From Antedon mediterranea (lineage: Eukaryota > Echinodermata > Crinoidea > Comatulida > Antedonidae), in contig NC_092671.1 in NCBI RefSeq assembly GCF_964355755.1, positions 38,581,304 through 38,645,303 on the forward strand: a stretch of DNA of 64,000 nucleotides, read 5' to 3'. The notes beneath the pieces are model-generated. The model was not told where the DNA came from, ran no database searches, and was given only the letters and a program-made list of their open reading frames with translations. This document shows, piece by piece, positions 13,870 through 47,500 of the stretch. Numbering within the stretch: position 1 is the first letter of the stretch; each line of letters starts with the position of its first letter. The position numbers were made by a program, and so were the translations under genes.

Positions 13870-14481
13870 ATCGTCAAATCATAGATGATGTAACTTTTAT
13901 CTCGAACTTTTTATAAATTTCCTTTAAAATTTATAATTGAAGTCTGTTAAATGTTTCTCAACCCGATTTTCTACAAAAGTTTAAAATAAAATCCACTTTG
14001 TATGACATAAAGGAACAGTTTCAACTAAAATAAATGTCTAAATGCTCAAACATTATTATACGAACGTGTTTGATAATTACATTAAATACAATCAAAAAAT
14101 CGATTAAATGTCAAACTTCACGAGAATTATTGCCTAAAGAAAGCCGGCTACCGAAAAACCAAAATATTGATATGAAGCGAATTGACGGGTTGGTTGTAAT
14201 TTAACAACAGTAGCGAATAAACACAGTAAATGTAAATTTGAAAATGGATTATAACTTGATTGTTAAACCTAGGCAAACTAAGCATTGTCTTGGTTATAGC
14301 ATGTATGACTGAGTACAGAACATCAATGTTGTAGACACATTAAACATTGAAGATAGTTCACGAACAGTCAAAACACTAATAATAGTAACATTATCACCTC
14401 AAGTTTGTCTTCTTCGTGTTTGCGAAAAACAAAGTAAATAATCGTTTAGATTCGAAAGTGGAAAACAGTTTTATTACATAA
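13870..14481. other. Upstream of the Tctex1 gene, no further gene seen
   Basis: AT-rich flank that presumably contains the Tctex1 promoter. I recognise no core promoter element. Confidence 0.5.
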
Positions 14482-16300: not shown

Positions 16301-16933
16301 TAGTATATGGATTCAGAAACCTATGATGAGGTAGTATGTTAAAATTTAAATTACTATTGTGGCATGCTACAATCAGGAATGTGTTTTAATTGGTCAAACC
16401 TTAAAATGCGTTTACATCGCTATGATGTAGCTTGACATTTCTACAATGAAGAAATGTGTTCACCTTGCGATAACAAAACGCACCACATCATCAGAAAGTG
16501 TTCTTATTGGTAAAATCTAGCAATTCCCTTACATTGCACCATAATGAAAGCTTACGCTACATGCTGCTTGAACTATGACCTATTATTGCTCTACAAATTA
16601 TATATATATAAAAAGAATAAATTGCACATTGTTAATCAACTGGTATAATGATTTAGGTTTTAAATTCTTTCAATCTCATTGTAATAGACAAAGCAAAAAC
16701 AACATCTATATGATGATGGAAGGAGTGTGTTAGGGAATGAGTGATAAATAACAACAATAGCATGACTGGAGAAAAGACAACACACACATTGGAAGAAAAC
16801 CATCATTTAGCCATACATAAATAATACAATAAATTAATACATCCTCATTTTGTTATAAATGTCACCAAATACATAAGTACCAATAATAACTAGACTAGTT
16901 AGGTTATCTGAGTAAAAACAATGAGCTATATAA

Positions 16934-17073
16934 AGCGTGGTTCCCACTAGCGACGCAAGGACGTAACGCAACGCAAGTGAATTGACCAATCACAAGCGAT
17001 GGCTTATTCGCTTGTCATTGGTTAAAACGCTTGCGTTGCGTTAACGTCCTTGCGTTACGTTCTAGAGTCTGCT
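16934..17073. mobile_element. Foldback MITE family B
   Basis: Left end AGCGTGGTTCCCACTAGCGA is intact and the right end (TACGTTCTAGAGTCTGCTT) is decayed. The inner arms AAGGACGTAACGCAACGC and their complement are almost perfect. Confidence 0.82.
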
Positions 17074-17279
17074 TGATTGAATATAAATACATTACAAAAG
17101 AAACAATGTTGAAATACAATAATACAAATAACCAAAATAATTGGTACAGTAATGTGACTTATTAGTATAGTTGTGATAGTGTATTCAAAATTCTGTATTA
17201 ATTTGTTTGATTGGATATCAAAAAAATTAATTATTTCACCCTTTATTAAATAATACCATACAAAGTGGTACATTAATTG

Positions 17280-17505
17280 CCATAAAGATGTATTGTCTCC
17301 CTGAAAAAAATAATTCCTACAATATTTTTTTTTAATATGCCATTTTAATGCCAGCCAAGGGTTTTTGGTTGAATTTAATCATTTATTTTGTCATTTTATA
17401 ATTTGTTTTTCTATGGAAGAGATTTACTACAAAATAACCTATTCAAAGTCTGATTTAATTAATCTTCATTTTTCATGTTTTTGGGGGACAATACATCTTT
17501 AAAGT
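17280..17505. mobile_element. MITE family C
   Basis: Inverted ends ATAAAGATGTATTGTCTCCC and GGGGGACAATACATCTTTAA bound an AT-rich, non-coding interior. It resembles the copy at 28060-28291 in length and interior words (TATGCCATTTTAATG). Confidence 0.75.
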
Positions 17506-17625
17506 TAGTTGTTACTTTTGATCTGTAGCCATACTTTCCCCTTCTTCATTGTGTTATTTTGGATAAAAAAAAGCTGCTCAGGAATTCAAACAGTTGTAAA
17601 AGCATATAAGAATCTACTTCCCTTA

Positions 17626-20600
17626 TTACTGCATGTTACTGTTTGTATCTAAAACTGCGTTAATATATTGAAAGCTGACTCTCTCCATCCAAGTGACAGT
17701 GTTGGGTTTTATGTAACCACCTTCGTAGAAACCAAGATGGCCGCCATGTTTGGTTGTTACGTACATCGCCTTGTCTGCTGTTTTTATGTAGGAATCAGGC
17801 GTTGTGTTGTACTTTGGTGGAATAATGGCATCATCTTCAGAATTTAGCATCAACATTGGTATAGTCACCTTTAAAAACAAATTATTATAAAATAAGGCAT
17901 AAATAAATCTAATCTAATTATCAAATAATATTATATAAACAGATAAATTTTAAAACTTTTTTACAGCCATGATAAAAAAAGCGAGGGCGCTATGACAATC
18001 AAAATATATTTCAAACCCAATAAATAGATGGAATTACACACAACTGTATATTTCAATATATTAGGGCTACTATCTATTTGACTAGAGAACCTTTGAAAAA
18101 TACTACAGCAGACACCTAGGGACCCACTAAAAGAGGGGGGGGGGGGGGGGGGTGTGGTAACTGTTACTTAATATTGACCTTATTGACCTTCTCAAAACTT
18201 GAAAGTAAGTACATAAAATTACCTTGTGAATGTGATTACTAGAACTACACCAAGAATAGAAATCATCCAAATTATCAAATCCAAGCATTTTTCTAAAAAA
18301 AAGTAAAACAAATTCATTATAGTTTGCAGTGTCCCAAAAAACTATATGAAAATTAAAATATAGAATTCATTATGACATTGCACCTACTGTTTTTTATCCC
18401 GGAACAACTTCCCCCCGCCCCCACCCACACGAAAAATAAACCCCACATTTTTGCATAAGCTTGCATTACAAAATCCTTGTTTTTAACCATAGAGTGAATA
18501 GTATCCTTTTTTCACAGTGTTTTACACCAGTGGAGAGTACATTAGCTTACCTGTTTAAATGCTCATCTATATGTACTAAGCTGGTAGACTTAAAAATTTC
18601 TTCTACATCATACGAAACATCGGCACAACCATTTTTCTTCCTGAAAGCTGTAGCGCCCTCGCCAAATAACATATGGCTGTTGCGGCGGATGTATTTCTTT
18701 AGGTTTTCTGCCATCATGAAGCAGTATAAACGACGGAATCCGTCCCACTCGTGCAGAACATCCTTTGCCCTGAAATATTCAGTAAATAGTTTTTATTATA
18801 TAACATCTAAACAAATTCCTGTAATTTGATTGGACGATTGTGGGTCAGATGGTGTGCAATAGTACGCACAATTGAACAGGCATTCAATAGTATATTTTTT
18901 CGTGTACGAAAAAAAAATCTTTTCGCAACATTTTTTTTAATACTATTGCTTTAGAAATACAACAGCACCACCTATTTTGTACTTTCGCAGTGAAACTTGA
19001 ATGTTATGAAATATAACCTTTCATCATTCACCTCATGCCATTATTTGTACCATTACACTCATAAACATTCATTACTTGTATATTTTTTAGACAAATTGAG
19101 GTTACACAAATTATCTCTTGATGTTAGATTTTAAAGATCAAATTATGATTTCAATATTACAAAATTAATAAAAACTTACAATGTAATGTCATATCCTTGG
19201 CATATAGATAAGGCACACTCAAAGTGTTTCTGGCGCTGAGGTTTTTCACCTAGATACTTGACAACGATGTTAGCTCCCATGCTGAAGCCAACAGCTATCA
19301 GTTTAGATGACGCAAAGTTCTTCAAAACATAGTCAACCATTCCTGCATATTCCTCAGTACCACCTGGAAAAAAAACCAATATTAAGCAGTATTATAATGC
19401 ACTTATTAATAAGCTAACTGAAAATGTATCTTAAGCTCTGTCTACACTATCAAAAACTAGTTTGACAAAAAAAGTGTGATGTGCCAAAATATGGTAGTGA
19501 TATGACATCATCATGTCCATATATGGGCACATCACATTTTGTTGTCACATAGAGTTTGATAGTGTAGACAGAGCTTTACAAAGTGAGTGGGATTTGTATA
19601 TAGAACAAAGGGTCACAGCAACAAAATGGAAAAACAGATTGTATATGCAGACTTTCTCACAAATGCGGTGGATTATCTACCTCATATAGCATCAGAGACT
19701 CTTGGAAAAAATGAAATATTGGGAGCAACACATAGAGGGCTATCATTTTTACAAAATATATCCATACTTAGAGGGTGCTATTAAAATAATTCTAGCACCA
19801 GTGGCCATATCATAGAATAGGATAGGCCATATGATAGAATAAAAAATAAATAAAAAATTAAAAAAAAAAAAGTCTTTGTTTATGTAGAGCATCTTGTGTA
19901 TATGTTTGTCTTGTGAATGGGATTGCCACCTTTGAGAAGGATAGTGAATGAATTTCACTTGTGGTTATCCTTGGCAATTTGCCTAAAATGAGAATATCAC
20001 CAATCACACTTAAGTATCATATTAAGTATTTTACTTAACTCAATAAATATTTAAGTATTTCCTTTAAATTGTATTCACTTAGATAGGAGATTTTTTTAAT
20101 TTTAAGGGTTTTAAATGGTGAATTAGCCTAAGTGTGAATAGTGAATATGGCCACAGCATCTTTGGGAGGTCTGTAGCATTATCAACTTGCCATAAGTAAA
20201 GATCCTTGGAGTTGTAAGTTTGTGTGACTTTAGCACACCTAGATGGTTGAGCACTACCATTCGGTAGCCATTTTGTTGACCATACCATGCAAAAGTTTCT
20301 ATGTAGGAATTATCACTTGTGTTAGCAATACCAGGTGCTATGCAAATTGTATAATCATCTGAAAAGATAACAAAAAAATGATTGTATTATTATATTACAT
20401 AACCACATTTGTCAGTACTTTTCACTACCTGCTCAACACAAACTCATTTTAAGTAAATTTACAAAAACATTTAAAAAAGAATAAACCACCCTTGCTTACC
20501 GTTACTTGAATGAGTTTTTTCTGGCTCAAAAATATCAAAAGTAAATGTCGTCTTATCAGGTAAAACAACAATCTTTCTGGTTCTGCTTCTGGTTCTTTTT

Positions 20601-21178
20601 TTTATAGAATGCTTTTTAAAACGACCATGTTTGGCGTATATAAACGTCTGTAAATGCCCACTTTTCCCCCATAGTAAAGTTGGTTGATATCTGTGGAAAA
20701 GTTATGGAAATTAAACTAAGTTTAGAAATAGTTACTCTCAGAGGAACTGGTGATAAGCATTGAGCACACGAGCTACAATATGTTACAATAATTGCTTACA
20801 TTTATGATTTTCAGTGGTGTAACAGCTATGAGTGCTCACTGGCTAAACCCAGGGGTCCCTTAAGCTCGGGGCCCCAGAGCATGAGCAGTCCAATGTAACT
20901 ACTCAGCATTGGAAGGAAGGCCTCTAATCCTGTGCGTTATGCCACTGTGATTGTTACTTGGCCTACATTTTATCAATTATAAAAGTGTTAACTACTTACA
21001 TTTCATTTAATATCGGACATGCTTTCTTTACTTCACAGTTGAACTTTGTTTCTTTGAACTTTACTGTTGGAGGTACAGCCCTTGTGTTCAGATTTAAAAT
21101 CTTCATTAAAATGTACAGAATAATTGCCAGAGCAACAAGGTAGATTGAATCCATCCTGTCAATCTTTGAACCAATCAA
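17626..21178 (-). CDS. ABHD2: Acylglycerol lipase ABHD2
   Basis: Seven exons in transcript order: 21178-21000, 20690-20500, 20358-20191, 19363-19180, 18769-18551, 18292-18223 and 17868-17626 (1254 nt, 417 residues). A hydrophobic N-terminal anchor (IYLVALAIILYILMKIL) precedes the alpha/beta-hydrolase domain. Family stretches include WGKSGHLQT, PGIANTSD, GYRMVVLNHLG, FTYGGTEEYAGMV, nucleophile GFSMGAN (Ser ~206), KYLGE, CQGYD, NSEDD (Asp ~349) and KHGGHLGFYEGG (His ~381). Human ABHD2 has 425 residues and Ser207, so this is full length. The enzyme is a membrane-bound monoacylglycerol hydrolase known in vertebrate sperm physiology. Intron 3 appears to be GC-AG. Intron 1 holds a hAT MITE and intron 3 a MITE A. 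A later in-frame ATG at 21154 is a possible alternative start. Confidence 0.93.
18135..18152 (+). repeat. Poly(G) tract, 18 nt
   Basis: Uninterrupted G run in the last ABHD2 intron. It is poly(C) in the transcript. Confidence 0.95.
19434..19575. mobile_element. MITE family A with TTA target duplication
   Basis: Best-preserved copy: ends AGCTCTGTCTACACTATCAA and TTGATAGTGTAGACAGAGCT are exact complements. It is flanked by TTA at 19431-19433 and 19576-19578, in ABHD2 intron 3. Confidence 0.9.
20812..20947. mobile_element. hAT-type MITE
   Basis: Ends CAGTGGTGTAACAGC and GTTATGCCACTG are imperfect inverted repeats. It is related to the better copy at 51181-51373, and its target duplication is no longer exact. 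It lies in ABHD2 intron 1. Confidence 0.7.
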
Positions 21179-21354
21179 CTGCTACTAAAATGCCTATTCA
21201 ATCATTCTATATAAAAAAAGAGATTCCACTTTATTTTTTTGTTGTCCTTTTTTCATGTGTATATCATGACGTTGATTGGGGCAGGGAGAGGATAACATCT
21301 AATCATGGATTAATTCCTTAATCCATGATCTAATCTAGCCATGGTATGATAGAT

Positions 21355-21480
21355 AGGCTAGGCCATAGTCAATATGGATTACGGCCGCTTGTTCAATAAC
21401 GGTAATTTGTATGGAACGCCGTGTGCGCTTTGATTGTCGTTGTTTTGTAATCTTTGATTGTCATTGTTTCGACAGGTTTT
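21355..21480 (+). repeat. Left arm of a 1.8-kb inverted-repeat structure
   Basis: About 120 bp containing CCATAGTCAATAT, TTTGTATGGAACGCC, TGTGCGCTTT and AATCTTTGATTGTCATTG. All recur in inverse order and orientation at 23027-23150. Lies just upstream of ABHD2 exon 1. Confidence 0.75.
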
Positions 21481-22104
21481 CTTTTTCTCAGACGTAAATA
21501 ACAATCTACATTATTATGTAATATATTCTCTTTTTTTACAGATTGAATGTGATACGTTCTTTTAAACGAAATGGCGAATTGATGATTACTTACTTTAACT
21601 GTTCTAAATGATATACAATATATGTTTAATGAAGTCAATATTAAAATACACTGTGGTGTTTGTATTGTATATTAATATAATATATAATAAGCCAATTATT
21701 AAGAATAGTGTATATATTTTTTCAATAAAGTATCAAAATATATATATTTGTTATTGTATATTAATTAATTAGTAAAGTAACTACTGTAGTACGTGTTCGC
21801 AATCATAATTTAATTACAATAACATGATGACATCAATTTAATTATTTAATATAATATCCTAAATTGTTTTATACCTTCAGATATAAAAATATTGATCAAT
21901 TTAAAATGAGTTTTAAATAATAAAATAAGATGCAAGTGTTTGTACGGTACGGTAATTAATTACGCGAATTTCTGCTAATAACTCGACTGGCGGCCGGCCA
22001 GGAACAGTGCTGTAAAAGGTCACGTTTTCGTCTCACGTTGCTTTATTGAAAACACAAACAATGTATTACAATGGAATATAACACACCCTATTACTAATAA
22101 TAAA

Positions 22105-22870
22105 AACCAAGATTCGATAGTACAGTGTAAATGAAATATAAATATTCGGCAATACCGTACGTAAATTATTAATGCCATACTGTATAAAGATTCGATCGTA
22201 TGTAAAATGAGATATAAATATTCGGCAATACCGTACTTAAATTATTATTGCAATACTGTATGAAGATTCGATCGTATGTAAATGAGATAAAAATATTACG
22301 TACGTAAATAGTGCAATACTGTATAAAGATTCGATAGTATGTAAATGGGATATTAATATTCGGCAATACCATACGTAAATTGTTAATGCAATACTGTATA
22401 AAGATTTGATAGTATGTAAATGAGATATAAGGATTCGGCAATGCCGTACGTAAATTATTAATGCAATACTGTATAAAGATTCGATAGTAGTAAATGAGAT
22501 ATAAATATTCGGCAATACCGTACGTAAATTATTAATGCAATACTGTATGAAGATTCGATAGTATGTAAATGAGATATAAAGATTCGGCAAAACCGTACGT
22601 AAATTATTATTGCAATACTGTATGAAGATTCGATAGTATGTAAAAGAGATATAAGGATTCGGCAATACCGTACGTAAATTATTAATGCAATACTGTATAA
22701 AGATTCGATAGGAGAGTGCTCAAGAAACGTCGGGTCAGTTCAACATTATTTTTTCCCTTCACTGCCAATGTATTTTTTTTTTAAAAGAGATATAAAGGTT
22801 CAATAGTACTGTAGATTATGATGCAAACGTAAATTATTAATGATTCGATAGTATGTAAATATATTTAGTT
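22105..22870. repeat. Tandem repeat, ~75-bp unit, about nine copies
   Basis: Each unit carries GCAATACTGTATAAAGATTC, GATAGTATGTAAATGAGATA and TTCGGCAATACCGTACGTAA. GATTCGAT recurs about every 75 bp from 22190 to 22700, then units decay. One junction (about 22712-22785) is interrupted by unrelated sequence. Open minus-strand frames here are by-products of the repeat. Confidence 0.92.
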
Positions 22871-23026
22871 AGTTAATATTAAAATACAAATAAAATATAC
22901 ATTGATTTATCGGCAGGCAAACTTAATAATTATTATAGAATCATAAAGATTCGATAGTACATGATTTAGCTTTATTTATTGGTTTGACCATACATACAGC
23001 TGTAACTCAACTCGCCATAGGCCATG

Positions 23027-23150
23027 GTGTTGACAATGACAATCAAAGATTAAAGCGCACATGGCGTTCCATACAAATGACGATATTAAACAGGCGGCCG
23101 TTTTGGTTGGCGGCCGCTTCGACCAATATTGACTATGGCTAGGCTAGGCC
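23027..23150 (-). repeat. Right arm of a 1.8-kb inverted-repeat structure
   Basis: Inverse complement of the 21355-21480 arm: CAATGACAATCAAAGATTAA, GGCGTTCCATACAAATGACG and CAATATTGACTATGGCTAG. A duplicated GGCGGCCG word separates two sub-blocks. Confidence 0.75.
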
Positions 23151-23197
23151 GGCTAGGCTTTCTTAGCTATAGAGAGGGGGCCCATCTCAGCTCCTAA

Positions 23198-23376
23198 AGC
23201 TTGGTTCCCACTAGAACGTAACGCAAGGACGTAAACGCAATGCAAGCGTTTTAACCAATGACAAGCGAAGTTATAGACAGTTAGCAATCACAAGCGAATA
23301 AGCCATCGCTTGTGATTGGTCAATTCACTTGCGTTGCGTTACGTCCTTGTGTTGCGTCGCTAGTGGGAACCATGCT
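23198..23376. mobile_element. Foldback MITE family B
   Basis: Ends AGCTTGGTTCCCACTAG and CTAGTGGGAACCATGCT, with long complementary inner arms (ACCAATGACAAGCGAA and TTCACTTGCGTTGCG types). Flanks read TAA and TAT. Confidence 0.87.
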
Positions 23377-23763
23377 TATAACTAGGCTAGGCTAGGAATC
23401 ACCAACCGGCCTGATATATTGCTTTAGAGGCCTAGCCTAGGCCATCCAGTGAGTCTATACTAGCTAGGCCTATCTAGCTAGCTAGCTAGGTAGGTGGTAC
23501 TAACTACTTTTATTCTAATTCTACCTTTTACGCTTAACTAGGCCTAACCCCGGATGGATTCCACTTACCTCTCTTGTCTTAACTTATTATTGTCTTAAAA
23601 TAAACCAAAAAGTAGCTCACGGTGGTGTGATGAGATTTATTACACAACAACTTTACATCCCCTATCTCTTTTATTATCAGCTCTACATCCGGAATCGTCC
23701 ATTATTCCATAGGGGTTAAAAATAAGAGAAAAGAAGAAAAGAGACACGGAAAGTCGCGAACGA

Positions 23764-24345
23764 TATTATTATTATTTATTCAGGCAAAAGATACATTTTA
23801 CAAAATATAATACAAATCAACAAATTAAACAAACACAACGCAAAAGAAATATAAGTCACTAGCTGTCAGGAAAGCACAAAAGCAGCCTAAGCCACTGTCA
23901 CCAATTAGGTGTGTACCTCCTCCAACCAGTGACTAATACAAATAATAGTAATAATAGATAATGATAAAGTTAATATCTTAAAAAAAAAAAATAAATGAAA
24001 TTATATTAAGCCTATAGTTTATATATGTATATGCTAAATTAAATTATAAATAAACAACTATAAAATAAAATTATTTTTTAATTTACATTAAAATATGTTT
24101 TAAATGTTAATACTAAATTGAGTACAAAGTACTGTAATATTTCATCCCAATTGTTTATCCCAATTGTTTATTAACTTTATCAACGGGTAAGTAATGTTCC
24201 CTTAGGTTACTTTTAAATGTACTCCATTTTGATAAGATAAAAGCATTCTTAAATCCATGGGTAATGCATCCCAAAGTCTACAAAACCGTACAGGTAAGCA
24301 ATGCAGTGCACTATCAGTCCGATAAATGTTAATATTTCCTGATGA
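23764..24345 (-). mobile_element. LINE 3' relic (reverse transcriptase tail)
   Basis: On the minus strand a broken frame reads CRLWDALPMDLR, the LWNxLP-type motif common near the C terminus of non-LTR retrotransposon ORF2 proteins. An AT-rich 3' part follows, ending near a TTATT-rich junction. No complete domain remains. Confidence 0.6.
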
Positions 24346-24351
24346 CGATGG

Positions 24352-24760
24352 TTTTTTTTTTTATATGTGAACTTTATTCAATCAATCGTACATTTGTTAT
24401 AATGGTAACCACAATAAGGTATAATATTACAGTAGATTTTTACAAACAAAAAAAACAAGACCAATATAAATATAAATTATAAAATATATACAATGATTAT
24501 TTACAGTAATGATAAAAATAAAAATTAATTGTTTACATTGACTATTATTGGAAACAGAAGTTGAATAATATTCAATGGTTAATATTAATCAGTTCATTTA
24601 AGTATTCATTGTTCATATTTAATGCTTTACATACAAATAATATGCTAAAAAAATCTCTGAGGGAGTTTAAGTCCATCATTTTTAGCCGAAGAAGTCTCTG
24701 ATCATATGGCTGTTCAAGTCGATGTTGATGCAAAATCATTCGAGTCAATCATATCACGTC
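24352..24760 (-). mobile_element. Second LINE 3' relic
   Basis: Minus-strand frame RLEQPYDQRLLRLKMMDLN continues to a stop, again the pattern of a non-LTR retrotransposon C-terminal tail. The 3' side ends in a TTTATTCAATC-type segment and an A/T run next to the relic at 23764-24345. Confidence 0.55.
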
Positions 24761-24869
24761 CGATACATCGGACGGACTGACATTTAAATCTAATCATAGA
24801 ATATCTCTATGATTTCAATAGCAGTGACGTAAAATTTGATTATCATTTGAAAAGTTTGATTAGAAAAAA

Positions 24870-24908
24870 TATAATATCGATATAATTATTATATAATTAT
24901 ATCGATAT
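24870..24908. repeat. AT-rich perfect palindrome with two ATCGAT cores
   Basis: ATATCGATATAATTAT and ATAATTATATCGATAT face each other around a TATA centre. Likely to extrude as a cruciform. No gene is nearby. Confidence 0.85.
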
Positions 24909-26059
24909 ATGAAGTCTGAATAATGGGGGAAACATAGTCGGAAATTTTCTCTTTTTCTACGTTTATTCATTTCACATTCATTTATACTATTATACGAATC
25001 AAGTAATAGAGATAAAGTGTAATAGCCTCAATTTGAATTAGTCGCTATACAATTTTATGAATGTGTATAGCCAAAATTATGTTGTTTTTTTTTGTTTCCG
25101 ATCCTGCTAACTAATGAGGACAACCTAATACTGAAAATTGTTTTAACGATTTTAATGTCACGTCACAATGTGTATATTTATGTGAGAAATGAATTTACAA
25201 CACGTGCCATTTTGTAGACCCGGTTTCACACTGCATTTCAACGGCGCATGAGTGTGGTGGACGCGCGCATCATAACTTTGATGATTTATTACCAAATTTA
25301 ATAATTAGTAACATGCAAACAAACTCATCTTTGCTCGAAAGGTCCACATGTACAAATTAAGGTTTCCATTTATAATGATGGGCGGCAATGGCTATAATAT
25401 TCTAATGCGAACTAAATAAAGTTCATATACATAATTTTTTTAATACATTTTATAATTTCATATAATATCTCTATAAATCCGTCTAGACATAAATTTGCTA
25501 TTGGGTGAAACATGCTCACAAGCGATTTCGTTACCGTAGAAACGACCTTCGTGTGTCTGTGTGAACGACTACTGAGAAGGACATAGAAGTAACGTGATCT
25601 GTTTAACACGCTTCATAGCGTGTAAAAACGAGATATCGTCTGCCTGTGTGTTCATGCAGCCTGTCAACAAACCTCAGTTTGAACAGGATTTTGGAATTGT
25701 TGGACTTTGTTTGAAACATTTTGTTGAGTTTTTGCCGTGTCTTCCATTTGAAAATGCAATAACTTTGTTGAAAACAATGAAGTTACTTCTGTAATTATAA
25801 TAACACTTTTGCAAGAACCATCGGTGAATGTTTTCAAACTGGTGTAAAAAATTGCTCAAATTCGCTCAGTGTAAAAGCGGCCTAGCTTGATGACCGTGTA
25901 CACACAATAGACTGTTCCTGCTGCGTCGTGTGAATGCGGTAATCAGCTATCGCACAAGCCTGGCCAAATGAACAGTGTGTTGCAAGTTTTACGCTCGAGT
26001 TTGTGATCGTCACAGTATTGCATAAAAAAACAACCGGCTTTTAAAGTAAACAATTTACA
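24909..26059. other. Intergenic, possibly an old transposon
   Basis: Words CCCGGTTTCACACTG near 25218 and CAGTGTAAAAGCGGCC near 25868 are imperfect inverted repeats and could bound a ~660-bp element. I see no gene. The last ~150 bp would hold the promoter of the Harbinger-like gene. Confidence 0.35.
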
Positions 26060-27460
26060 ATGGCAAGTCAACTTGAAACTTTAAATATTTCTCTTGCAAT
26101 TATGGAATTTGTTACTCAATGGCAGATGCAACAAAGACAAATAGATGCTAGGCTGTTACTTCTCAGACGAAGAAGAAGAAGAGTTGCTTGCCAGTTGAAA
26201 ACTATGATTGAAAAAATGTACCCACCACCACCAACTGATGAGGAAGTCGAAGAGGCAGAAACATCATCACCACAGGAGTCGAGTAAGAGAAAGTATAAGA
26301 AAAGAGCAACAAAGAAAAAACAAGTTACTCCAGAAAGTATTGATGGCATAAATCCTAAGCCAAGAGCTTGGACTTTAACAAAAGAAAATCACTGGTTTGA
26401 GAATGATGTTCCGCAATTCACAGATTTGGAATTCCTCGAGCACTTTCATGTCAGTCGGAAAACTTTTAAACTCATTTGCGACCATCTTCAAAGCGATCTC
26501 ACCAAAGCTCACACGAACATGCGGCAAGCAATCAGCGTGGAGAAGCGTGTTGCTGTAAGTTTATACATGTTGGGGAAGTCAAAAGCGTGCACCTACAGGA
26601 ACATTGCTGATTTGTTCTCCATGGGGAAGAGCACTATTGGTGGTACATTGTATGACTTCACTAAAGCAGTCTGCAAACGTCTTCTGCCATTGATCAGATT
26701 TCCCTCAGAAGAATCAATGAGCGACATTGGAAAAGGATTCAACTCTGCCGTCGGGTTTCCAGATTGCATCGGTGCACTTAACTTTATCCACATACCTCTT
26801 TTTACGCCATTAGGTTCAAGTCTACCGACGGACTACTTGAACGAAAATGGCTGGTATTCCATGATCTTGATGTGTGTGACCGATCATCAAAATCGATTTA
26901 CTTACGTTAAAAGCGGTTTCCCGGGCAAGTTGGACAATTTGGGTATATTCAAAGAAAGCAGTTTAAATCAACTCGCTACCGATGGAAAGATTGTACCAGA
27001 AAGTCAGGATGTACATTTGGTGGCGGATGTCGATATGCCATTACAAAATTGGCTTTTAACACCATTTGTGGATGATGGTAGCTTAAACGAGGTTCAGAGA
27101 CTGTATAATAAAAGACTGCATTCTGTACTTGATTTCTCACAGACAGCAATGGAGAAACTTAAAGGACGTTGGGGGTTCCTTTTAAACAAATGCAACAAGA
27201 AACTTGACAGAGCGGCAAACATCTTCATAACCTGTTGTATTTTGCATAACATATGTGAGGAACATGGCGACGGATTTCTTGACAGTTGGATGAACGAAGT
27301 GAGACTAGCCGATGCAGCAGCACCTCAACAGCCAATTGGGGTTCCGTTTGCGGACGATTGTTCAACGGATGCGTTGGTGAAACGGAATGAAGTTGCCTAC
27401 AACTTGCAGACTCTAGGAATAGTAGACATGAACATAGAGATGGAAATGAACCAGCCATAA
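26060..27460 (+). CDS. Harbinger transposase-derived nuclease-like protein, catalytic triad altered
   Basis: Intact intronless ORF of 466 residues with its own ATG. Residues ~1-100 are low complexity and very basic (RRRRRR, KRKYKKRATKKK; possible nuclear signal). At ~160-200 a helix-turn-helix-like stretch (CTYRNIADLFSMGKSTI) typical of PIF/Harbinger transposases follows. The DDE_Tnp_4-type domain spans ~230-410: GFPDCIGALNFIHI, then VADVDMPLQNWLLTPF, then FSQTAMEKLKGRWGFL. In active relatives these segments carry D (GAIDGTHI), D (GDSxYPL) and E (VVERAxGxLKxRW). Here they are N, D and Q. Cleavage activity is therefore unlikely while the fold looks kept, as in domesticated relatives such as plant ALP1. 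No terminal repeats were found around it. It is convergent with the minus-strand DNA-binding genes at 30-36 kb. Confidence 0.85.
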   Translation: MASQLETLNISLAIMEFVTQWQMQQRQIDARLLLLRRRRRRVACQLKTMIEKMYPPPPTDEEVEEAETSSPQESSKRKYKKRATKKKQVTPESIDGINPKPRAWTLTKENHWFENDVPQFTDLEFLEHFHVSRKTFKLICDHLQSDLTKAHTNMRQAISVEKRVAVSLYMLGKSKACTYRNIADLFSMGKSTIGGTLYDFTKAVCKRLLPLIRFPSEESMSDIGKGFNSAVGFPDCIGALNFIHIPLFTPLGSSLPTDYLNENGWYSMILMCVTDHQNRFTYVKSGFPGKLDNLGIFKESSLNQLATDGKIVPESQDVHLVADVDMPLQNWLLTPFVDDGSLNEVQRLYNKRLHSVLDFSQTAMEKLKGRWGFLLNKCNKKLDRAANIFITCCILHNICEEHGDGFLDSWMNEVRLADAAAPQQPIGVPFADDCSTDALVKRNEVAYNLQTLGIVDMNIEMEMNQP

Positions 27461-27668
27461 ACTGTTAATCCCAGGAAAAAATTAATCTGTTCTAAAAAAA
27501 ATGATTTGTTTTCACTTTTAATAATCAGTTTTTATTTAACAATTTTTATAAATGATTGTTAAAAAAAATTATTTTCAGTTTTGATAATCAGTTTTTATAT
27601 AATTGTGCACTAAAAATGTTGTCAAAGTGATATGCTATATTATAGTTATTTGGAAACTGTAATCCTAA

Positions 27669-27825
27669 AGCCCTGTCTACACTATCAAACTTTATGTTAC
27701 AAAAAATGTGATGTGCCCATATATGGACATGATGTCATATCACTACCATATTTAAGCATATCACTACCATATTTGGGTACATCACACTTTTTTTGTCAAA
27801 CTAGTTTGATAGTGTAGACATAGCT
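27669..27825. mobile_element. MITE family A with TAA target duplication
   Basis: Ends AGCCCTGTCTACACTATCAA and TTTGATAGTGTAGACATAGCT, flanked by TAA on both sides. Inserted 0.2 kb downstream of the Harbinger-like gene. Confidence 0.88.
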
Positions 27826-28059
27826 TAAAGTAGCAAAGGTGCGACACTTCCTGTGTCAATATTCCTTCCATATTAATCAACATATGCTATCAGGCCAATT
27901 AATGGACCTATAAATTAGATTTTATTTATATTAAATAAAATTTAAAGGTCCATGGTTGAACAGACATATTTTGTAAAATATGTTTAAAACATTTAATTTC
28001 AGTGCCATCAGAATTGCATGTTTTTAATCATCATTAAGCAAGGTACCAAAATGAATGAT

Positions 28060-28291
28060 GGTTAAAGATATATTGTCCCTCTAAAAAAAATTTTTTCTTT
28101 ATTGTTCTTGAATATGCCATTTTAATGTAACATAATAGTTAATCACTTCGACCAAAAACTGGATCAAAAAAAAAAAATAATAATTTCCCTGAAAAAAATT
28201 TAATTTAAAGCAAAATATACTCCAAACTCCAAGTCCAATTTTATTAATCTTTGATTTTAATGTTTTTGGGGGACAATACATTTTTAACATT
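28060..28291. mobile_element. MITE family C
   Basis: Inverted ends TTAAAGATATATTGTCCC and GGGGGACAATACATTTTTAA around an AT-rich interior with TATGCCATTTTAATG and TTTATTAATCTTTGATTTT. Confidence 0.75.
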
Positions 28292-28595
28292 TCAGACATG
28301 AAACTTATTTTTTGTTTATTTGGCCTAAAATGCTGCAATTGTGATGCATTATGCAAACAAATGTAACGACCCATTACAAAAATAATATTTATCAAGCTTA
28401 TGTATTTACACGCTTATTGTACAAACAAGTACAGTATTTCTTGTTTATTCAATGTAAATAAAAAAAAGTTACGGAAATATTGTGTTTAATTTTATTTTGT
28501 ACAAACTATACAGTATCAACAATGATAAAATAATAAATAAAACCCTTTTACAATTAATATTTTGACTTGGATTAAGTTTGGAAACGTGACTTCTC

Positions 28596-28905
28596 TAAGA
28601 TAAGATAAGATAAGATAACTTTTATTGATCCTCAAAAAGGAAATTCATTGCTCGTCATAATAACAAAGACACAATACAAATATAGCATAAAACCATTCAT
28701 ATAAAAACATCTAAAAAATACAAAATAATATTATCTTCTTGACTTCCTGTTGTACTGGATGATACCGGAGGGAATAAAGGATTTGGCATATCGATTTGTT
28801 TTCACACTGAGGAGCCTCAATCTACCACTTGGATTAAGTTGGTCTATGATTACTTTGTGGAGAGGATGAGAGGCATCCGACTCAATGCGTTAAGCAGGGG
28901 ACATG
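28596..28905 (-). mobile_element. LINE 3' relic with (TTATC)n tail
   Basis: On the minus strand the frame ends with GRLRLLSVKTNRYAKSFIP, the extreme C terminus typical of L2/CR1-like ORF2 proteins, then a stop and a short AT-rich 3' UTR. It terminates in four tandem GATAA units (TTATC on the element strand). Confidence 0.7.
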
Positions 28906-29826
28906 GGTCTAGGTAGGTAGGATCTGTGGGTAAGGGTGTGGAAGTAGGTAGAAGATGGGGTGTTAGGTGGGTAGGTCATGAAAATGTATAATTTATACAA
29001 TTTAAACCAAAATCACTGAATAATTTTCAGTTACAGTGCTCACATGATGAAATTAATAATTCTATATTTACACATGCGAATGTTATTTTAATGGCTGGTT
29101 GCGCGCAGATCATTTAATTATATGTAAAATTAAATATTGATATTTAAAATTCTAAATAGATTCTCATGAATCTTTTGTTGAAATTTAATAATTGTTATTA
29201 TTCTCGACATACTACTATATCTATAAATATAGATAAATTTTGAAAACTTTGACAGAATATTCAAAATAAATAATTATTATTTTGACAATAAATAAAAAAT
29301 CATGTTTTTAAATGGATTTACAACAGAGAAAATCATAGTTGCATTGAATTGAATATCATGTAATAATATAAAAATAAATCAAAGATGCTTAAATTAATAA
29401 TACCGATCACGGCCGTTGGTTGGTAAGGTTTCAACCTGACCATTTTTTCACAGAGGCGTTTGACAACCCAGCGGCTTGAATAGAGATTGTTCCCTTTTCT
29501 TGCGAAAACCGGACCACTTTATTTCTCGTGGCTACATCACTGCTGATTGATGGTTGACATGCTTGCTTACCAATTACAGAGTTCATTGGTTCATATCCAG
29601 TCCCAAGATTTTTATGATGGTGGGAAAATTCAGCACCTATCTAAGCCTCATATGAGACTACATGTGTTAGAAAAAGATGGGTTTGCCAATCAATTCATTC
29701 ATTTATTTAACCTAATATTTATAGAATGTGATCCTAAACTGATAATCAAGGGGCCCTCATATAAAAAAAAAAAATAAAATATTAAAATACATTTGATTGT
29801 TTCCAAATGAAAGCTATAATTTGTTT
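28906..29826. other. AT-rich spacer, no gene seen
   Basis: Includes a GTAGGTAGG-like short repeat near 28910-28980. No coding, RNA or transposon structure that I can support. Confidence 0.5.
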
Positions 29827-31097
29827 TTAAAACGTTGGCTGTTGTTGGCACATTTGTCCTACAACCTGCGCCATCATCCCAAGCATGTTTTGAAAAAACT
29901 GGTGTTCGTTCTCGGCCCGCCGCCTGTCAATCTCCATCCGCTTACAGTCTATTTCCAACGCTTGCATTTGATTTTCTACTATTTTTTTTAACGAATCCTT
30001 TATTATTTCAATGTTATTATTGTCATTTTCTTTCCGTATTTCTGGACCTGGTGCAGTTGTTGGTTGTTGTTGATGATTTTGGCTTCTCGCATTTGAATTT
30101 GGTTGTTGAGAGGGTGGGGCAAACTCACTTTGCAATTGAGGTGTATCAGTTGATCTAAAAAAGAGAAACAAAAATCTTTTTTATATTTATTTTATTTTAT
30201 TTCAACTATTATAGGATGCCTTCAAAATATTTAGATATAAATATATACATAAAAACAATAGGAAACATACAAGAAATGGCAAAATTAAATAGCTTTAATA
30301 AAGAACTTTAGATCTAAAAATTGACAAACTGTCAAAAAAAATATTGATAGTAAAGCATGGATAATCTTTGAATAAAAGCATTTTAAGTTTAAAAAGATGA
30401 ATATCCAGTTCCAATTATTTTCAAAAATATTGATGCACTGATTAAAAAACAGTACTTGCCCTTCTAACTTTCTCTTTTTACTCTTTCTTGGTGTGATGCT
30501 CATTCTTGCCATAAATGACTGCGCCCATTTTTCTGTTAAATCAATATTTCCTCCATTTTCCCGCATGACAGAAGAATCGTGTTGTTCTACCATTCCACGG
30601 GCTGCTCCAAGAACAATTCTTCGGGTGATGGGTACTCCGTTTGTCTGAAGTCTTCGTATATAGTCTTGAATACGTTGATCAAGCTCGCTACCAAGGAGAG
30701 GGGGTCTTCCTCGGTTACCAATCGGTAAGTTTGTAATTGTATCTCCGTCTTTGCAAACAGCTAATTGCTTTTGGTACGCTTCTTTAAAAGCTCTCACTGT
30801 ACTTTCATTCATTTTCTTTCCAAGTTCAGAACTAAATTTCCTGCAGGCGCTTGTGATGCCGTGGTCTGTAGCGTGCTGCCCGATACGAGCTCTAATTTCT
30901 GGATTATAAATAACATACGGCCCACGCTTTTTCTTTCCCTTGCTCCGATGAATGATCTTATTGACGGCTGCATTTGCAGCTCGCATTTCTGCAGCCCGTT
31001 CCTCAGAATCCTCGTCCTCTGGGTCTGGCAGGTCAGAGTTCAGTACTTCGTCATCAGGACCTGCCTCTCCATTTTCGAGAAAATATGGAAGGGACAT
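29827..31097 (-). CDS. Pogo/CENP-B-like DNA-binding protein with C-terminal coil exon
   Basis: Main exon starts at the ATG at 31097: an acidic leader (DPEDEDSEERAAE), a basic segment (KGKKKRGPYVIY), then a pogo-type region with ITSACRKFSSELGKKMNEST, RGRPPLLGSELDQRIQDYIRRL, GVPITRRIVLGAARGMV and LTEKWAQSFMARM, as at the N terminus of pogo/jerky-like transposases. No DDE domain follows. A second exon, 30154-29827, encodes a Gln-rich linker and a coil (KRMEIDRRRAENEHQFFQ) ending in a stop. A donor at 30469 (AAA|GTTAGA) joins it in phase, giving 318 residues, but that donor is weak. A rival donor at 30456 is out of phase with this exon. The coil exon may instead belong to a neighbouring trihelix gene. 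Each exon is credible; their linkage is inference. Confidence 0.55.
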
Positions 31098-32447
31098 ATT
31101 TACCTACAAATAAATCCTTTCCTCAAACAGAATAAAACCTAAAAATAAATTATATAATAATATGTAAATAATAAATAGGGGAGAGATGTTTATATTCATT
31201 ATTATTTTTTAACAACTGGTGTCCAGGGAAAGATTTAAAGTTCATACATCCTATTTTTACTGTATTAAAAAAAAATATAGTACAGTATAATATGATCATA
31301 GTTTTTAAGGTAGTTTAACTAATAAGGTCACACGGAAATATTGACCTCTCACACCACAAATATTTGTATGCTCTGAATGAATAATGAAGTTTGTTCTTCA
31401 AGGAGACCTCTGTCTGTGTGCCAGTCTCTGGCAGCCGCCTTACTTAGCCTATGGAGGTATAAAAATAGATACCTCCATGCTTAGCCAGGTTTGAGTAGCT
31501 AGGCTATAATACGTAATACAATTGGCCTAACTAAGGCATTACGACAAGGTTAGACATGATCATACACAAATATATCTCTTGCTCACAGCAGAATCGATGA
31601 TTATTTATTTCAAGAAGAAATCACATCTCTTACTTTGGTTGAGTAAGCAGGGATTCTCAAAACAACAATTTAAAGTACTGTACGTGTTCTGATGTTGTGA
31701 GCTGCAGCTATTCTGGGTTATTTATTTTCTTATGAGCGCCCTCTCTGGAATGATCTCTGATTAATTATTGTTGGTGGTAATATAAGTTGCTCCTCACAGC
31801 ATACAAACATTTGTCGGCAATGGATGAATTGGATGCAATAGCACATTGTTTTATAGAGTTGTGAAAAGCACTTTTCCACACGATTATGGTGCAAATATTT
31901 ATCAGTAAAATACTTAAATATCTGGAATGTTGCATCGATTTGATGACCGCATTAAACATTAATGTTCAGTGACTGTTACAACACAATAAACACTTCAATA
32001 AAGAAAGACTGAGTTTGTTAATTCATTAATAAAACTTTATTTGATTGAGTTTGAAAATATGATTGATTAAAGCATGCTTCAATTTGAAAAATGAAGTAAT
32101 GTTTTAGTTAGCACGATGCTACACAAAAATTAAAAATGCATTGCTATGTACAAGTAACCAGGAAGGTTGTATACCTCCCCTCCCTGGTACAACCCTACAG
32201 TAGATTGTAGCTTAGTCGTCACTTGGGTAAAACCATTCGTATTATTACTTAAATTACATGTATTATTACAGTATTTTGAGCATATTATATAAATTTTATA
32301 CAGTATTAATTGCATCCGAGTAATGTTTTATTTACATGGCTATTATTATCGCAATGATATGCTACCTAAAGTGTTATATAAACTCAGTTCATGCAAAATT
32401 ATTGTTGTTCTATTGGGAGAAAAAATATACAGTGTCATGAAAAATGA
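31098..32447. other. Spacer between DNA-binding genes
   Basis: No gene recognised. A hairpin of ATGGAGGTAT and ATACCTCCAT lies at about 31450-31479. Confidence 0.5.
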
Positions 32448-35400
32448 TCAGAGTAGGCCTACAGAGTTCTGTTGGGTCATGTGACCAATAATCTGCGACA
32501 TCATTGTCAGCATTCCGTGGAAGAATTGTCGTTCAGAATCTATGCGTTGTTTTTCTAATGCAACACTTTGTCTTTCAAGATCAACCATAGTCTCAAATAG
32601 ATCGGTGAGTTTTTCTTTTTGCTTATTAGCTTCGTTACTTTCCGCCAATTTTCGTTTTCTTGGGTTACACGACTTCCTCTTATTGACTTCTTGAACATCT
32701 GGCAGTGGTTTCTGTTGTTGGACTTCTGCTGCGGGCAAGTATTCGTTAGTGGTGACGTCGTCAATATTAGTTTCAACACCATTACTGTTGCAAGTGTCTT
32801 CAGGTGTTGGACTTAGTTGGTTGTTGGTTGGACTACCATTCTCAAGTCCACTGAAAATAAAAATATAAATCTATTTTATTATTAGGTTTGGCATCCAGAA
32901 AGTACAACAAATGAACTTCTCAAACTTTTAAATCATAACCTAAGCTAAGGAGTTTAATACAAATAGGTGGAAATTCACTTTTGGTAAAGTCTACTGTATA
33001 GAGTATCACGGTGTGACATCACAACGATAGAGGGCGCTGCATGGTTGCTAGCCAACCAAAAAATGTGTTCAACGCTACTATGTTGATAAACTGTAAAGAT
33101 TTGTATTTCTATCAAATTATGTATCTGAATAAATAGATTTATTAAAAAACAAATATTTAGTGATCTTTTGAAATTTTAGTTTGTTTTTATTGAAAATTAC
33201 TAAGTTTTAAAATGACTATTCTAAACTATTGCTGACCTTGGAGTCAGGTTGAACACATTTTTGGTTGGCAGCGCCACCTACCGTCGTGACGTCAGCATCG
33301 CGATACTCTATACTGTATTTGTTAGGATACGGTTTTCAGGAAATGATTTGGCATGTCAGTCACTTTATATGGATTTAAGCGGGGGATAAACAGGCTTTAG
33401 TGGCCCCCACCCACAAAATTTAAGACAGGTTTTTAAAAAATAAAATAATGACTACTTTTATTTTAATGCAACCAGACGTATCATTTTTATCATTTATGAT
33501 TGTGACATTGTCACTTAATTGCGTCAAAAACATATTTTTTTGCCTTTAGTTAAAGGAGCTTTTTTTTTGTATAGATTTAAAGCAATCATAATAATAATAA
33601 TAAACAGTATTTATATAGCGCCTAATAGATCACTGACCCCTCTAGGTGCTTTACATAGGACCTTAACTAATGGTAATAAACTATCCCCCGCCGGACACCA
33701 TTCCAGTATTTCTTAGTCGAGGTTTCGGGGATATGAAATCATGAGAAATCAGGAGAAATAGTTGGAAAAGCGGACAACTTCTTATCAGGAATAAATCGGA
33801 AAGTCTGTAAGTATCCCACTTAAGTTCCTTGTCACCCAAAATAAAGATTTTAGGACATCAAATTTGCGATAAACAACATCATCAAAGGACCTTTTAAAGA
33901 TGATTTCAGCAGCATCCAGTAAACTCTCATCTTCCAAATCTTGATGAGAACAAAAACTTGACATCGAGTCCAAAACATTTGCATTTCGAGTTGACGGATG
34001 AGATTCCAATACCGCTTCAACCTCGGGGAAATAATCACGAGCATTTCTATCCGTCATCGGTGCATCATCGCTCTTTAACGCTTTCTTATGTTTAAAGTAA
34101 GCTGTCTTAACATTTGCCATTTTGCTTTTGTAATCCGCTCCTGTCCGGTTCTTATACCCCAATGCTTTCATTTTTTCTGCTATTCCTTCCCAGATACTAT
34201 GATGGCAAAATGTTGACTCAAATTTTTCTTGGAATTCATCCAATCCCCATATTCTTATCAGAGTTTGTACTTCATCTCTGTGGAATATCTTCCTTCTTTG
34301 TTTTTCATGCTCTTCCGTTGCTTTTGTATTTTCCAATTCTAGGCTTGATGTCATTTCTTCTTGCTCAGCCATGATGAAAGGTATTAAAATGACTCCTATT
34401 GTCTGTCTACATTAAGTTGTGTAGCAGAACTGATGTTATGTTAAGAAAATAGTGGAAATGATATAGGTTGAATATAAATATACACCAAACTAGAGAGAGG
34501 ACCAACCGACTTCGCACCACTAGCAGAGGTTATTTTCCTCGCCGTACTATTTCATTGAAAGTTTAAAAAACAAAAAGGGCAAGGCCTAGCCTTGGCTAGT
34601 TAAACAAGCTATTTAAGTTAAATACAATACAGTATTATCATTCCTATCTAGACGAGCTTACACACAATTCCTAGTCCTAGATTATTATTGTAAAACCCTT
34701 TAGTAAAAATGTCAAAAAAAAAGGTAACAAGGATACAAATAAAAATGTTTCAAGAACGTCAGATTCTTTCATCCCATTCATGCATGCAGCAACAGCTCCT
34801 CACCACTCAGAGCTAGCTGCTCAAGAAAACATTTATAGCGCCACCACCCGGCGAAAAAATATTCACACGTACACTTGTACTTTTCTCTCTACACATTATC
34901 TCGACTCTTGTTACACTTTCAAACTAGTTTGACAAAAAAGTGTGACGTGCCCAAATATGGCAGTTGATATGCTTAAATATGGTGGCGATATGACATCATC
35001 ATGTCCATATATGGGCACATCACCTTTTGTTGTAACATAAAGCTGATAGTGTAGTGTAGACAGCTGGTACGGGGGGGGGGGGGGAGAGTGTGGGCTAAGT
35101 TTGGGATGGGAGGAGGAGGAAGAGTTGGTGCTAGACTGAAGCCGGGACTGAAGTGAAGTAGTAACGTTTAATTAAAAATAGATAATCAATAGTTTATATA
35201 AAGTCCTTGTACCACCTGAAAGAAAAAAGTACGCATACTTACTGTTCAGTGTTTTCCGATGTTTTTTTCTTTTTAATAAGCGGAATGGGAAACTTTTGTT
35301 CTTCGTCTATGTATAAAGCAAATCCGTTGTAGAAACTATCATGGGACGCGTCATTGACGGAAAACGCACATGTGTCTGGTCGCGAAAAAATGTCGTGCAT

Positions 35401-35697
35401 CTTTGTCCAGTACGTCCAATTTGGCGTTGCACCAGTAGACAGGAACTCCTTTTTGTATTTAAAGTAATGTGCTTTGAGATTTAACACACGTCTTTTTAAC
35501 TCGATGTCTGGTCGGTTGTATCCTCGGCTTACCATTCTATAACCAATGTCACTCCATATTTTATTGTGACGAGTTGACCTAAGAAATTGGTTTTGAATTT
35601 CTGCAGCTCCCCAGATATTTATAAGAACTTTTGATTCTTCGATACCAAAGTTTTTAGCTCTTCTATAGAGCTGCTGATCGCTAAAAATCGAGCTCAT
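32448..35697 (-). CDS. Trihelix/Myb-SANT-like DNA-binding protein 1 (two exons)
   Basis: Exon 1 (35697-35243) begins MSSIFSDQQ and carries a Myb/SANT-like trihelix domain. Its aromatic positions are IEESKVLINIWG, HNKIWSDIGYRMVSRGY and LKAHYFKYKKEF. It ends on a strong donor (CA|GTAAGT, phase 2). Exon 2 (32850-32448) follows a TTTTCAG acceptor in matching phase. It encodes a Ser/Thr/Pro/Gln-rich linker, a basic patch (RKSCNPRKRKLAES) and a C-terminal coil (LERQSVALEKQRIDSERQFF) ending at a stop. Joined length is 858 nt, 285 residues. Its architecture matches the Myb-like partner protein of Harbinger transposons. Its 2.4-kb intron contains a second trihelix ORF on the same strand. Nuclear DNA-binding role inferred. 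Confidence 0.7.
33586..33690 (+). repeat. Dispersed ATATAGCGCC-type repeat fragment
   Basis: AATAATAATAAACAGTATTT then ATATAGCGCCTAATAGA and GGTGCTTTACATAGG. This resembles an interspersed repeat common in marine invertebrate genomes. Ends are not defined. Confidence 0.45.
33785..34372 (-). CDS. Trihelix/Myb-SANT-like DNA-binding protein 2
   Basis: ORF of 195 residues from an ATG at 34372. After an acidic/basic leader there is a trihelix domain: FHRDEVQTLIRIWG, IWEGIAEKMKALGYKNRTG and KMANVKTAYFKHKKAL. A second conserved segment follows (DAAEIIFKRSFDDVVYRKF). It parallels exon 1 of the flanking gene (LIxIWG, IWxxI, KxxYFKxKK) but is clearly diverged. It lies inside that gene's intron on the same strand, so it could be an alternative first exon or a separate gene. 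No phase-2 donor was found near its end that would join it to either coil exon, so I treat it as a single-exon gene ending at the stop. Confidence 0.65.
   Translation of the reverse strand: MAEQEEMTSSLELENTKATEEHEKQRRKIFHRDEVQTLIRIWGLDEFQEKFESTFCHHSIWEGIAEKMKALGYKNRTGADYKSKMANVKTAYFKHKKALKSDDAPMTDRNARDYFPEVEAVLESHPSTRNANVLDSMSSFCSHQDLEDESLLDAAEIIFKRSFDDVVYRKFDVLKSLFWVTRNLSGILTDFPIYS
34903..35064. mobile_element. MITE family A, degraded copy
   Basis: Family core words (GCCCAAATATGG, ATGTCCATATATGGGCACAT) and part of both ends (CAAACTAGTTTGACA; GATAGTGTAGTGTAGACAGCT) are present, but the outermost bases are changed. It lies in the trihelix 1 intron. Confidence 0.75.
35071..35084 (+). repeat. 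Poly(G) tract, 14 nt
   Basis: G run directly after the MITE at 34903-35064. Confidence 0.95.
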
Positions 35698-44582: not shown

Positions 44583-47500
44583 ATGTTGGGGTTCGAGCAG
44601 GCATGGACGACGATGACGGACAGGTACACGACCTGGCAGATTGCAGGACCAGGATCTCTTATCCTCCATGAGGTATCAGCAGCAGTTATTGCATAGGCCT
44701 ATATTAATTTTATACATATTAATATTCACGAATATACTGTATACCTCCCGTGCTGTGGTGGTGATACGGTACGTGCTCATCGTTTGGAGGTGTCAAGCGG
44801 TATTTTTTTAGGTGATCCCAGAATTTAATTCATTAATTATTTAATGATTTTCTTAGCAACGTCGTGTCATTTTAATAACTACATTTGTTATTCTATTTAA
44901 TAGATGCTGTATCTGTTAATATGCCTTCCTGGATTCGTATTCCAATTTATACCATATATGCAGAAGTACAAGATACAAAAGGTAGTATTTATTTATGTTA
45001 GGAATATACTGTGTTATCATGGCGGCGCACGTGCCCATCAGGGTCCCAAACCACAAGCTATCTGATTGGTTCAATGTTTAACATGTTTATTACGATGTCG
45101 GTGACTGCGCTGCAAGGTGGTAATTATAATGTCTCTGGTTTTTACAAAAGGCGTGATCCTCGTACAAAACCTAGCTCTGTCTACACTTTTGACAATAAAA
45201 GTGTAATGTGCCCAATTATGGTAGTGATATGCCCAAATATGGTACTGATTGGTTCAATGCTTAACAGTTTATTATGATGTCGGTGACTGCACTGCAAGGT
45301 GGTAATTATAATGTGTCTGTTTTTTTTACAAAAGGCGCGATCCTCGTACAAAACCTAGCTCTGTCTACATTATCCAAACTTAATTGTTTGAAAACAAAAG
45401 TGTGATGTGCCCATGGTTGTGATATACCAAAATATGTTAGTGATATGACATTATCATGTCCATGGGCACATCACATTTTTTTTGTCACAGAAAGTTTGAT
45501 AGTGTAGAAATGGTTGCTCATCAAATCGGATAAAGTCAAAAGTATCATTTCTATCTATTGTCATTTTCATGTTTTGTTTGCATACTTTCTGTTTCTTTTT
45601 CCCCAGATACCAGAAGGGTTTGATTCACAATGGAGGTGTTTCAAACTTCTAATGTTCAACCATTTTTTCATTCAAGCACCCCTCATTTTTGCTACTCACA
45701 TATACACCAGAGCGTTTGACATCGGATACGATTACCAGTCAATGCCAACATGGTATAGTTATATAATTTTTCTATTTTTTATTTTTATTTTTTCCAATCA
45801 GCATAATAGTTAAATACTATATTATGCTGCATGTGCATGTAAAATAAACAATTAAATAAAAAGTTATGATCCTTCAAAACTCCTTTAAAAGATGCATGGT
45901 CCCTCAAAAATGAAAAATGAAGATTAAAAATTTCAGACTTTAAAATAGGCCATTTTGCAGTTATTCACATCTGTTTAAAAAAAAGTAATCTTCGCTTATT
46001 AATAGGCAAAAGGAACGGGTAATTTTAACCAAAAACTATTGTTTGACAAACAATTTTAATATTTTTTGCTTTAAATTTCGAAAAAAAATTATTAAAAAGA
46101 TTAAATAAAAAGTTTACAGTCTGATAAGGTAAGTGCTATCGTTTTTAAATCAATATTTATTTATTTTGGCTCTAGAATTCTTATAATATGGTTAATGAGG
46201 GGGGACCAAATATTTTCAGCTTCACCGTATAATTAATTCTTTTTTTAGGTACTCTCTGCTTCTCCAGTTGTATGCTTGTCTTATCCTGGAAGATACATGG
46301 CACTATTTCTTACATCGTGCGCTCCATCACAAATCTGTTTACAAATACGTACACAAAGTTCATCACAATTACAAGGTAAGTTTTATAATTCAAAGAAAAT
46401 TTTAATAATTGTTTCATCAGCAAAAGTATATGGCCATCACATTGGGCTAACGTAGTTCGAAAGAACATAGCGATACAATTGATACGTGACTGAGAACTTT
46501 GTCTGTAACACAATGGGGATATACCATTACACCAATTAATGTATTCTGTAATTTTTTATAAGCTGAAAGCAAGCAGCAGTTATAGTACTAGAGACTGACT
46601 TTTTGCTAAAATGCATACTCGACTATAATCTGTAGGTCCCAGCTGCTGGACCCAAAAAACGTCTGGGAAAAAAGTCTATGAGGGCTCACGGTTGAACGAT
46701 TTTGGGTTGCATGCCTACAGTTAAGGTTGAGGTCACAGACAAACAGGCTACAGCACATTAAAGTTCAAAATTGACCATAATTTTTAAATGCCATTTTTGA
46801 ATTAGTAGATTAATATTTGTTGGCAAATAATACATTGTTGAAAAGGTAGGCCTACACATGTCTTCTTTCAAATGCTGTGTATACAATTAATAATAACTTT
46901 ATTTGAACAGACGCTTTTAGAACAGCGGCACACGTTTTATGACGGTGCGTTCATAAGTTTAAAGAAAAAGAAAAGGAAATGAATTATACAATAGTTAATT
47001 AACAAATTAAAGTATGAAAATAAACTTTAAGATCAACGAATACAGTAAACACAAATAGTAATTTAAAAAAAAGATTTACAGAGATGTACACCAGTCTTTC
47101 TCTGCAACATTAAATACAATACAGTGAAAATTAATAAACAAAATTATAAAGCAACAATGCAAATTAGCTCTTTTTTAACTCGGATCTTTTTTTCCAGGCA
47201 ACTTTAAGAAAATTCTTACAGTATTTGTCAAATGCTGTCAAGACAGCTTTACTAGGATCCAAGTTAATATCTCCCCCTAAAACTATAGTAGTTTTTTCAT
47301 TAACATCAGCATTTATAAAATGTTCCCATGTTCCAGACTCATCCAAATTTTCAAGGTCATTATTTAGCTTCACTAATTGGATCTCCCTTATAGCATTAAA
47401 AGCTTGGCAATTAAATAAAAAATGTTGTACATTTTCTATTTCACCACTCAGACATATAGTGCAGTGGCCAGATATTTCTTTAGACCATTTACAGGTTCGT

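Follow-up and report, generated by a model that had tools for sequence, protein, structure and literature searches.

Among the genes of the crinoid Antedon mediterranea lies a short island of transposase-derived open frames, and the question that it raises is whether these are a live PIF/Harbinger transposon, the leftovers of one, or a set of genes that the host has kept. The window analyzed here is the whole 64,000-nucleotide stretch around the island (C2:38581304–38645303), and the genome searched is the 354-Mb assembly to which it belongs (18 contigs, with matches on C1 to C11). We consider it fairly probable that the island is a PIF set that the host has retained and co-domesticated, with a catalytically dead nuclease and a partner family that has expanded and undergone a domain swap. 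It apparently represents the remains of a cut-and-paste transposon in which one copy of the DNA-binding partner carries a domain of a different transposon family. All of the open reading frames named in the initial annotation are present at the positions it gave, in the order nuclease on the plus strand, then coil2, the pogo-type exon, coil1, trihelixB and trihelixA on the minus strand. Elsewhere in the window, carboxylesterase-family exons are interleaved with opposite-strand frames of rhodopsin-type 7TM receptors (1888–12195), a frame of the Tctex-1 dynein light chain family occupies 13396–13878, and remnants of non-LTR retrotransposons with endonuclease/reverse transcriptase matches lie on the minus strand at 47164–50412 and 58754–59908.

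The PIF/Harbinger-type nuclease gene (26060..27460, plus strand) is a single exon of 466 aa that matches PF13359 (DDE_Tnp_4) with 65.7 bits; it is CATALYTICALLY altered and alone in the genome. At the three catalytic motifs, where nearly all aligned relatives from the same genome have D, D and E, it carries the triad N241-D323-Q361, which bears out the earlier description of its site as altered, and alignment with these relatives shows that the PGxxHDA motif has lost its H-D as well. Residues 75–88 form a basic stretch. A DNA search of the genome found the gene in one copy, while a protein search returned 91 matching stretches, the best relative (L003 on C10) being 31% identical. Out of 55 near-invariant columns, defined over 15 relatives with an intact triad, the nuclease retains 34 and is changed at 21. 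Its losses are concentrated round the active-site motifs (240–242, 322–326 and 354–365), and scaffold positions such as F-P, D-Y-N, L-K-G-R-W and L-H-N are retained. PDB sequence searches returned nothing meaningful, and AlphaFold2 models built on single sequences were poor (mean pLDDT 39 for the nuclease and 48 for the pogo exon) and were left unused. Altered triads also occur in the PIF copies L055, L014 and L024. The first of these (G000:C6:23258000–23267900) combines the triad D-T-Q with open exons and is possibly another domesticated copy; no trihelix frame was recognized by eye within its 10 kb.

No convincing pair of TIRs with a TWA duplication encloses the window genes, in agreement with the initial annotation, which had reported no terminal repeats. 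Positive controls from the same genome were recovered by the same scan: it returned the ends of L056 and L057 (4.25 and 4.28 kb; TTA; AGCCCCTTTCTCACAGA), which are 98.9% identical over 4.3 kb and are apparently young PIF copies, and those of L060 (4.4 kb; TAA; GACCCCATTTACACTTCA). A 6-kb TIR/TAA pair at 17045–23231 was discarded, being actually two copies of one MITE (16933–17065 and 23197–23377) whose opposite orientation mimics the ends of a 6-kb element. Internal self-matches aside, the flanks (24300–29800) match the genome only through a high-copy SINE at 28596–28891, the counts being lower bounds; this SINE-like repeat is ~95% identical to many genomic copies. Related palindromic MITEs with ends like GTCTACACTATCAAACT lie at 27672–27828, ~34900–35065 and 19433–19576; one is situated just downstream of the nuclease and another separates trihelixA and trihelixB. 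Many near-identical copies with TIRs, which had been named beforehand as one observation contrary to domestication, were sought in this genome and not seen. With respect to the features of a live PIF/Harbinger element, the locus has homology to DDE_Tnp_4 and lacks an intact D-D-E triad, TIRs with a TWA duplication and multiple similar copies. Within this genome, domestication is well supported over a live state: the locus is single copy, has a dead active site, unique flanks and no TIR/TSD, and has kept its frames intact despite heavy divergence.

A locus that is no longer mobile could also be an old, immobilized element in decay, its open frames being functionless leftovers. The MITEs and the SINE inserted between the genes, as well as the absence of a clear second exon from trihelixB, are what such decay might leave behind, but open frames with usable splice sites persist in the nuclease, trihelixA, the pogo exon and both coil exons, despite the change of the nuclease at 21 of 55 sites. 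In a neutral-drift simulation of the nuclease frame alone, the probability of no stop did not exceed 0.006 at 0.1 substitutions per site and was at most 0.0007 at 0.15 or more, an indirect measure that presumes that most changes at invariant sites postdate the loss of catalysis. Because these simulated probabilities are low, an open nuclease frame is improbable under neutral drift, and we regard decay as highly improbable.

The remaining genes of the island, all on the minus strand, were resolved into predicted spliced forms. Exon 1 of trihelixA (35243..35697), which matches PF13837 with 48.6 bits, ends in a phase-2 donor (ACA/GTAAGT), and its C-terminal exon, coil1 (32448..32850), has a phase-2 acceptor (TTTTCAG/T) and the terminus ERQFFHGMLTMMSQIIGHMTQQ; the two are predicted to join in frame across a phase-2 GT-AG intron into a protein of 285 aa. 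Similarly, the pogo/Tc5-type DNA-binding exon (30460..31097; donor AGG/GCAAGT, phase 2), which matches PF03221, and the C-terminal exon coil2 (29827..30154; acceptor TTTTTTAG/A, phase 2; terminus EHQFFQNMLGMMAQVVGQMCQQ) are predicted to join in frame across a phase-2 GC-AG intron into a protein of 321 aa. An AATAAA lies 116 nt past the stop of coil1 and 120 nt past that of coil2. The exon boundaries first placed at 35243, 32850 and 30154 coincide with in-frame splice points, and the pogo exon is present as proposed; its end lies more likely at 30460, where the GC-AG donor fits the consensus, than at 30470. Two properties of these models weigh against the explanation that we favor: the intron between the pogo exon and coil2 requires a GC donor, and intron phase is 2 in the window genes versus 1 in the live elements that were read. 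TrihelixB is an open frame of 195 aa (33785..34372; PF13837, 44.6 bits) inside the trihelixA intron, and its second exon is uncertain: it has no good phase-2 donor to any coil exon, and a convincing second exon was not found. Splicing of trihelixB to coil1 would be in frame, yet the donor is weak, and this model was rejected.

The arrangement of these genes bears on whether nuclease and partner arrived together. In the live elements L051, L052, L054, L056 and L060, the nuclease is followed by a two-exon partner gene on the opposite strand, with its coil exon nearer the nuclease and its trihelix exon farther away. Pairing of nuclease matches with non-repetitive PF13837 matches at most 12 kb apart yielded 18 convergent pairs, two of them the window's, and one divergent pair. 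The window keeps the convergent polarity of nearly all the other pairs, which favors an origin of its nuclease and partner in one insertion. The retained order lends support, short of proof, to the proposal of a co-domesticated nuclease and trihelix pair; the trihelix genes are, however, not closest to any one live partner. TrihelixA and trihelixB are 36% identical over 86 aa, and the nearest relative of trihelixA, at 41% identity, is L053 on C9, a weak point for the favored explanation. A domain tree joins trihelixA to L053 (support 0.88) and then to trihelixB (0.95), apart from most live partners, and neither a nuclease nor a coil exon was found in the 10 kb examined near L053, which likewise tells against that explanation. 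Because of this tree position and the lack of a nuclease or coil near L053, the trihelix genes may belong to an older host family. Such a family, comprising trihelixA, trihelixB, the C9 copy and perhaps the C8 copy, could lie beside a separately domesticated dead nuclease, the neighbors then being independent and not the product of one insertion, and an intron phase unlike that of the live elements would fit this origin. We find independent origin rather unlikely in view of the convergent adjacency that matches 16 of the 17 nuclease/trihelix pairs outside the window, and in view of chance: given ~409 PF13837 candidates in 354 Mb, any one nuclease would have such a candidate in the 12 kb downstream in ~1% of cases, and less often on the right strand. 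PF13837 also occurs in other settings in this genome, including seven tandem trihelix-like domains on one strand within 5 kb (G000:C2:8535946–8540909), an unusual multi-trihelix gene or cluster, and dozens of frames of ~88 aa that match PF13837 positions 13–88 and mark a high-copy repeat carrying a trihelix fragment.

Homology of the two coil exons, a further claim of the initial annotation, was confirmed: coil1 and coil2 align with a score of 104 compared with 34±6 for 1000 shuffles (Z 11.7), and for their terminal part Z is 13.5; no shuffle attained the observed score. Each is the other's only match in the genome, and neither matches a Pfam family above cut-off. Both terminate in a Met/Gln-rich helix motif, as do the live partner proteins. 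Coil2 resembles the live coil of L060 (Z 5.6), the only clear similarity to live coils; coil1 has no significant similarity to them, which counts against the favored explanation. The pogo-like frame matches PF03221 (HTH_Tnp_Tc5) with 26.5 bits, above the cut-off of 22.2, and the exon has no second copy in the genome, where PF03221 matches 27 other places. According to Pfam, no DDE domain follows the HTH in this frame, and L061, a DDE-bearing pogo-type protein of the same genome, has no match in the window. A search beside coil2 for the remains of a trihelix exon found none. Because the gene models are in frame and coil1 and coil2 are homologous, a pogo/Tc5-type DNA-binding exon and a C-terminal exon of Harbinger type are apparently parts of one gene. 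The simplest account would be that the partner gene was duplicated locally and its DNA-binding exon replaced, or that a pogo-derived gene captured a coil exon. We found no description of such a domain swap in the open-access literature, which is no proof that none exists.

In the explanation that we favor, the host would have kept both genes of an old PIF/Harbinger insertion. The nuclease, probably unable to cut, would have preserved its fold and perhaps also the surface that binds the partner. The partner gene, consisting of a trihelix exon and a C-terminal coil exon, would have been duplicated in place, and in one copy a coil exon of this kind would now be preceded by a DNA-binding exon of pogo/Tc5 type. 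By analogy with known pairs, the shared coil module may bind the dead nuclease, with the differing N-terminal domains bringing this scaffold to different DNA sites, and the outcome would be a DNA-targeted regulator set working like ALP1-ALP2, HDP1-HDP2 or HARBI1-NAIF1. We infer that the spliced forms are transcribed, that the proteins interact and serve a nuclear regulatory function, and that the genes are retained in other species. The shared C-terminal exon is the one feature that suggests a multi-protein set. More tentatively, and as a possibility rather than an expectation, a co-domesticated PIF complex may have shifted its DNA specificity through exon replacement, a DNA-binding exon of the pogo family having been combined with the copied nuclease-binding exon of a Harbinger partner, such that one dead nuclease scaffold would serve several DNA-binding adaptors that stem from two transposon superfamilies. 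A transposase that is dead but still folded would naturally act as a dominant negative, and the proteins might instead owe their retention chiefly to binding and silencing of related PIF elements, not to regulation of host genes. Targets to repress exist, because apparently young PIF copies such as L056 and L057 are present; against this role, the nuclease is only ~30% identical to any live family, so that shared end-specificity is improbable, and we judge it very unlikely that repression is what preserved the set.

Known systems place these proposals in context. The ALP1-ALP2 pair of Arabidopsis is similar to the island in that a catalytically altered PIF nuclease, with two catalytic residues lost from ALP1 (PMC4671723), is kept as a host gene with a Myb-like partner (PMC4671723, PMC7282668). 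In ALP2, HDP2, NAIF1 and the Ping Myb protein, the region that binds the nuclease lies toward the C terminus, and the C-terminal part of ALP2 binds the ALP1 nuclease (PMC7282668); binding by the window coils is suggested by this analogy. The triads differ (DGA in ALP1, NDQ in the window), and the ALP partner is neither locally multiplied nor accompanied by a pogo-type partner. A chromatin role was tested for ALP1-ALP2; a regulatory role of the window set is predicted from sequence. HARBI1-NAIF1 of vertebrates, as cited in PMC9710019 and PMC7282668, is also a working pair of PIF nuclease and Myb-like partner. The window differs in its altered triad, its PF13837 partner frames and its genes lying side by side in transposon order, and the likeness drawn here concerns the kind of pair. 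Also comparable are DPLG7-DPM7 (Drosophila), APLG-APM (Anopheles) and LPLG2-LPM2 (Lepidoptera), each an adjoining, single-copy nuclease and partner from one insertion, without TIRs (PMC9710019). These rest on cross-species synteny and dN/dS (PMC9710019), while the window represents one genome, and unlike them it has a multiplied partner, one copy of which bears an unrelated DNA-binding domain. Pogo/Tigger-derived host genes (PMC7386202) similarly keep an HTH_Tnp_Tc5-type DNA-binding domain in a single-copy gene, but the window gene has no DDE; in its place is a coil exon that shares homology with the one in the neighboring trihelix gene.

Co-domestication of two Harbinger proteins is already known from plants, vertebrates and insects. 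Because PIF genes co-domesticated from one insertion have been described in insects (PMC9710019), the kind of event is known; what is new here is the expansion together with the apparent swap of domains. If our reading is correct, a kept pair grew into an adaptor family by duplicating locally and by taking up the DNA-binding exon of an unrelated transposon. In that case, how transposase-derived complexes gain new targets would become directly testable, with the live PIF families of the same genome as comparators.
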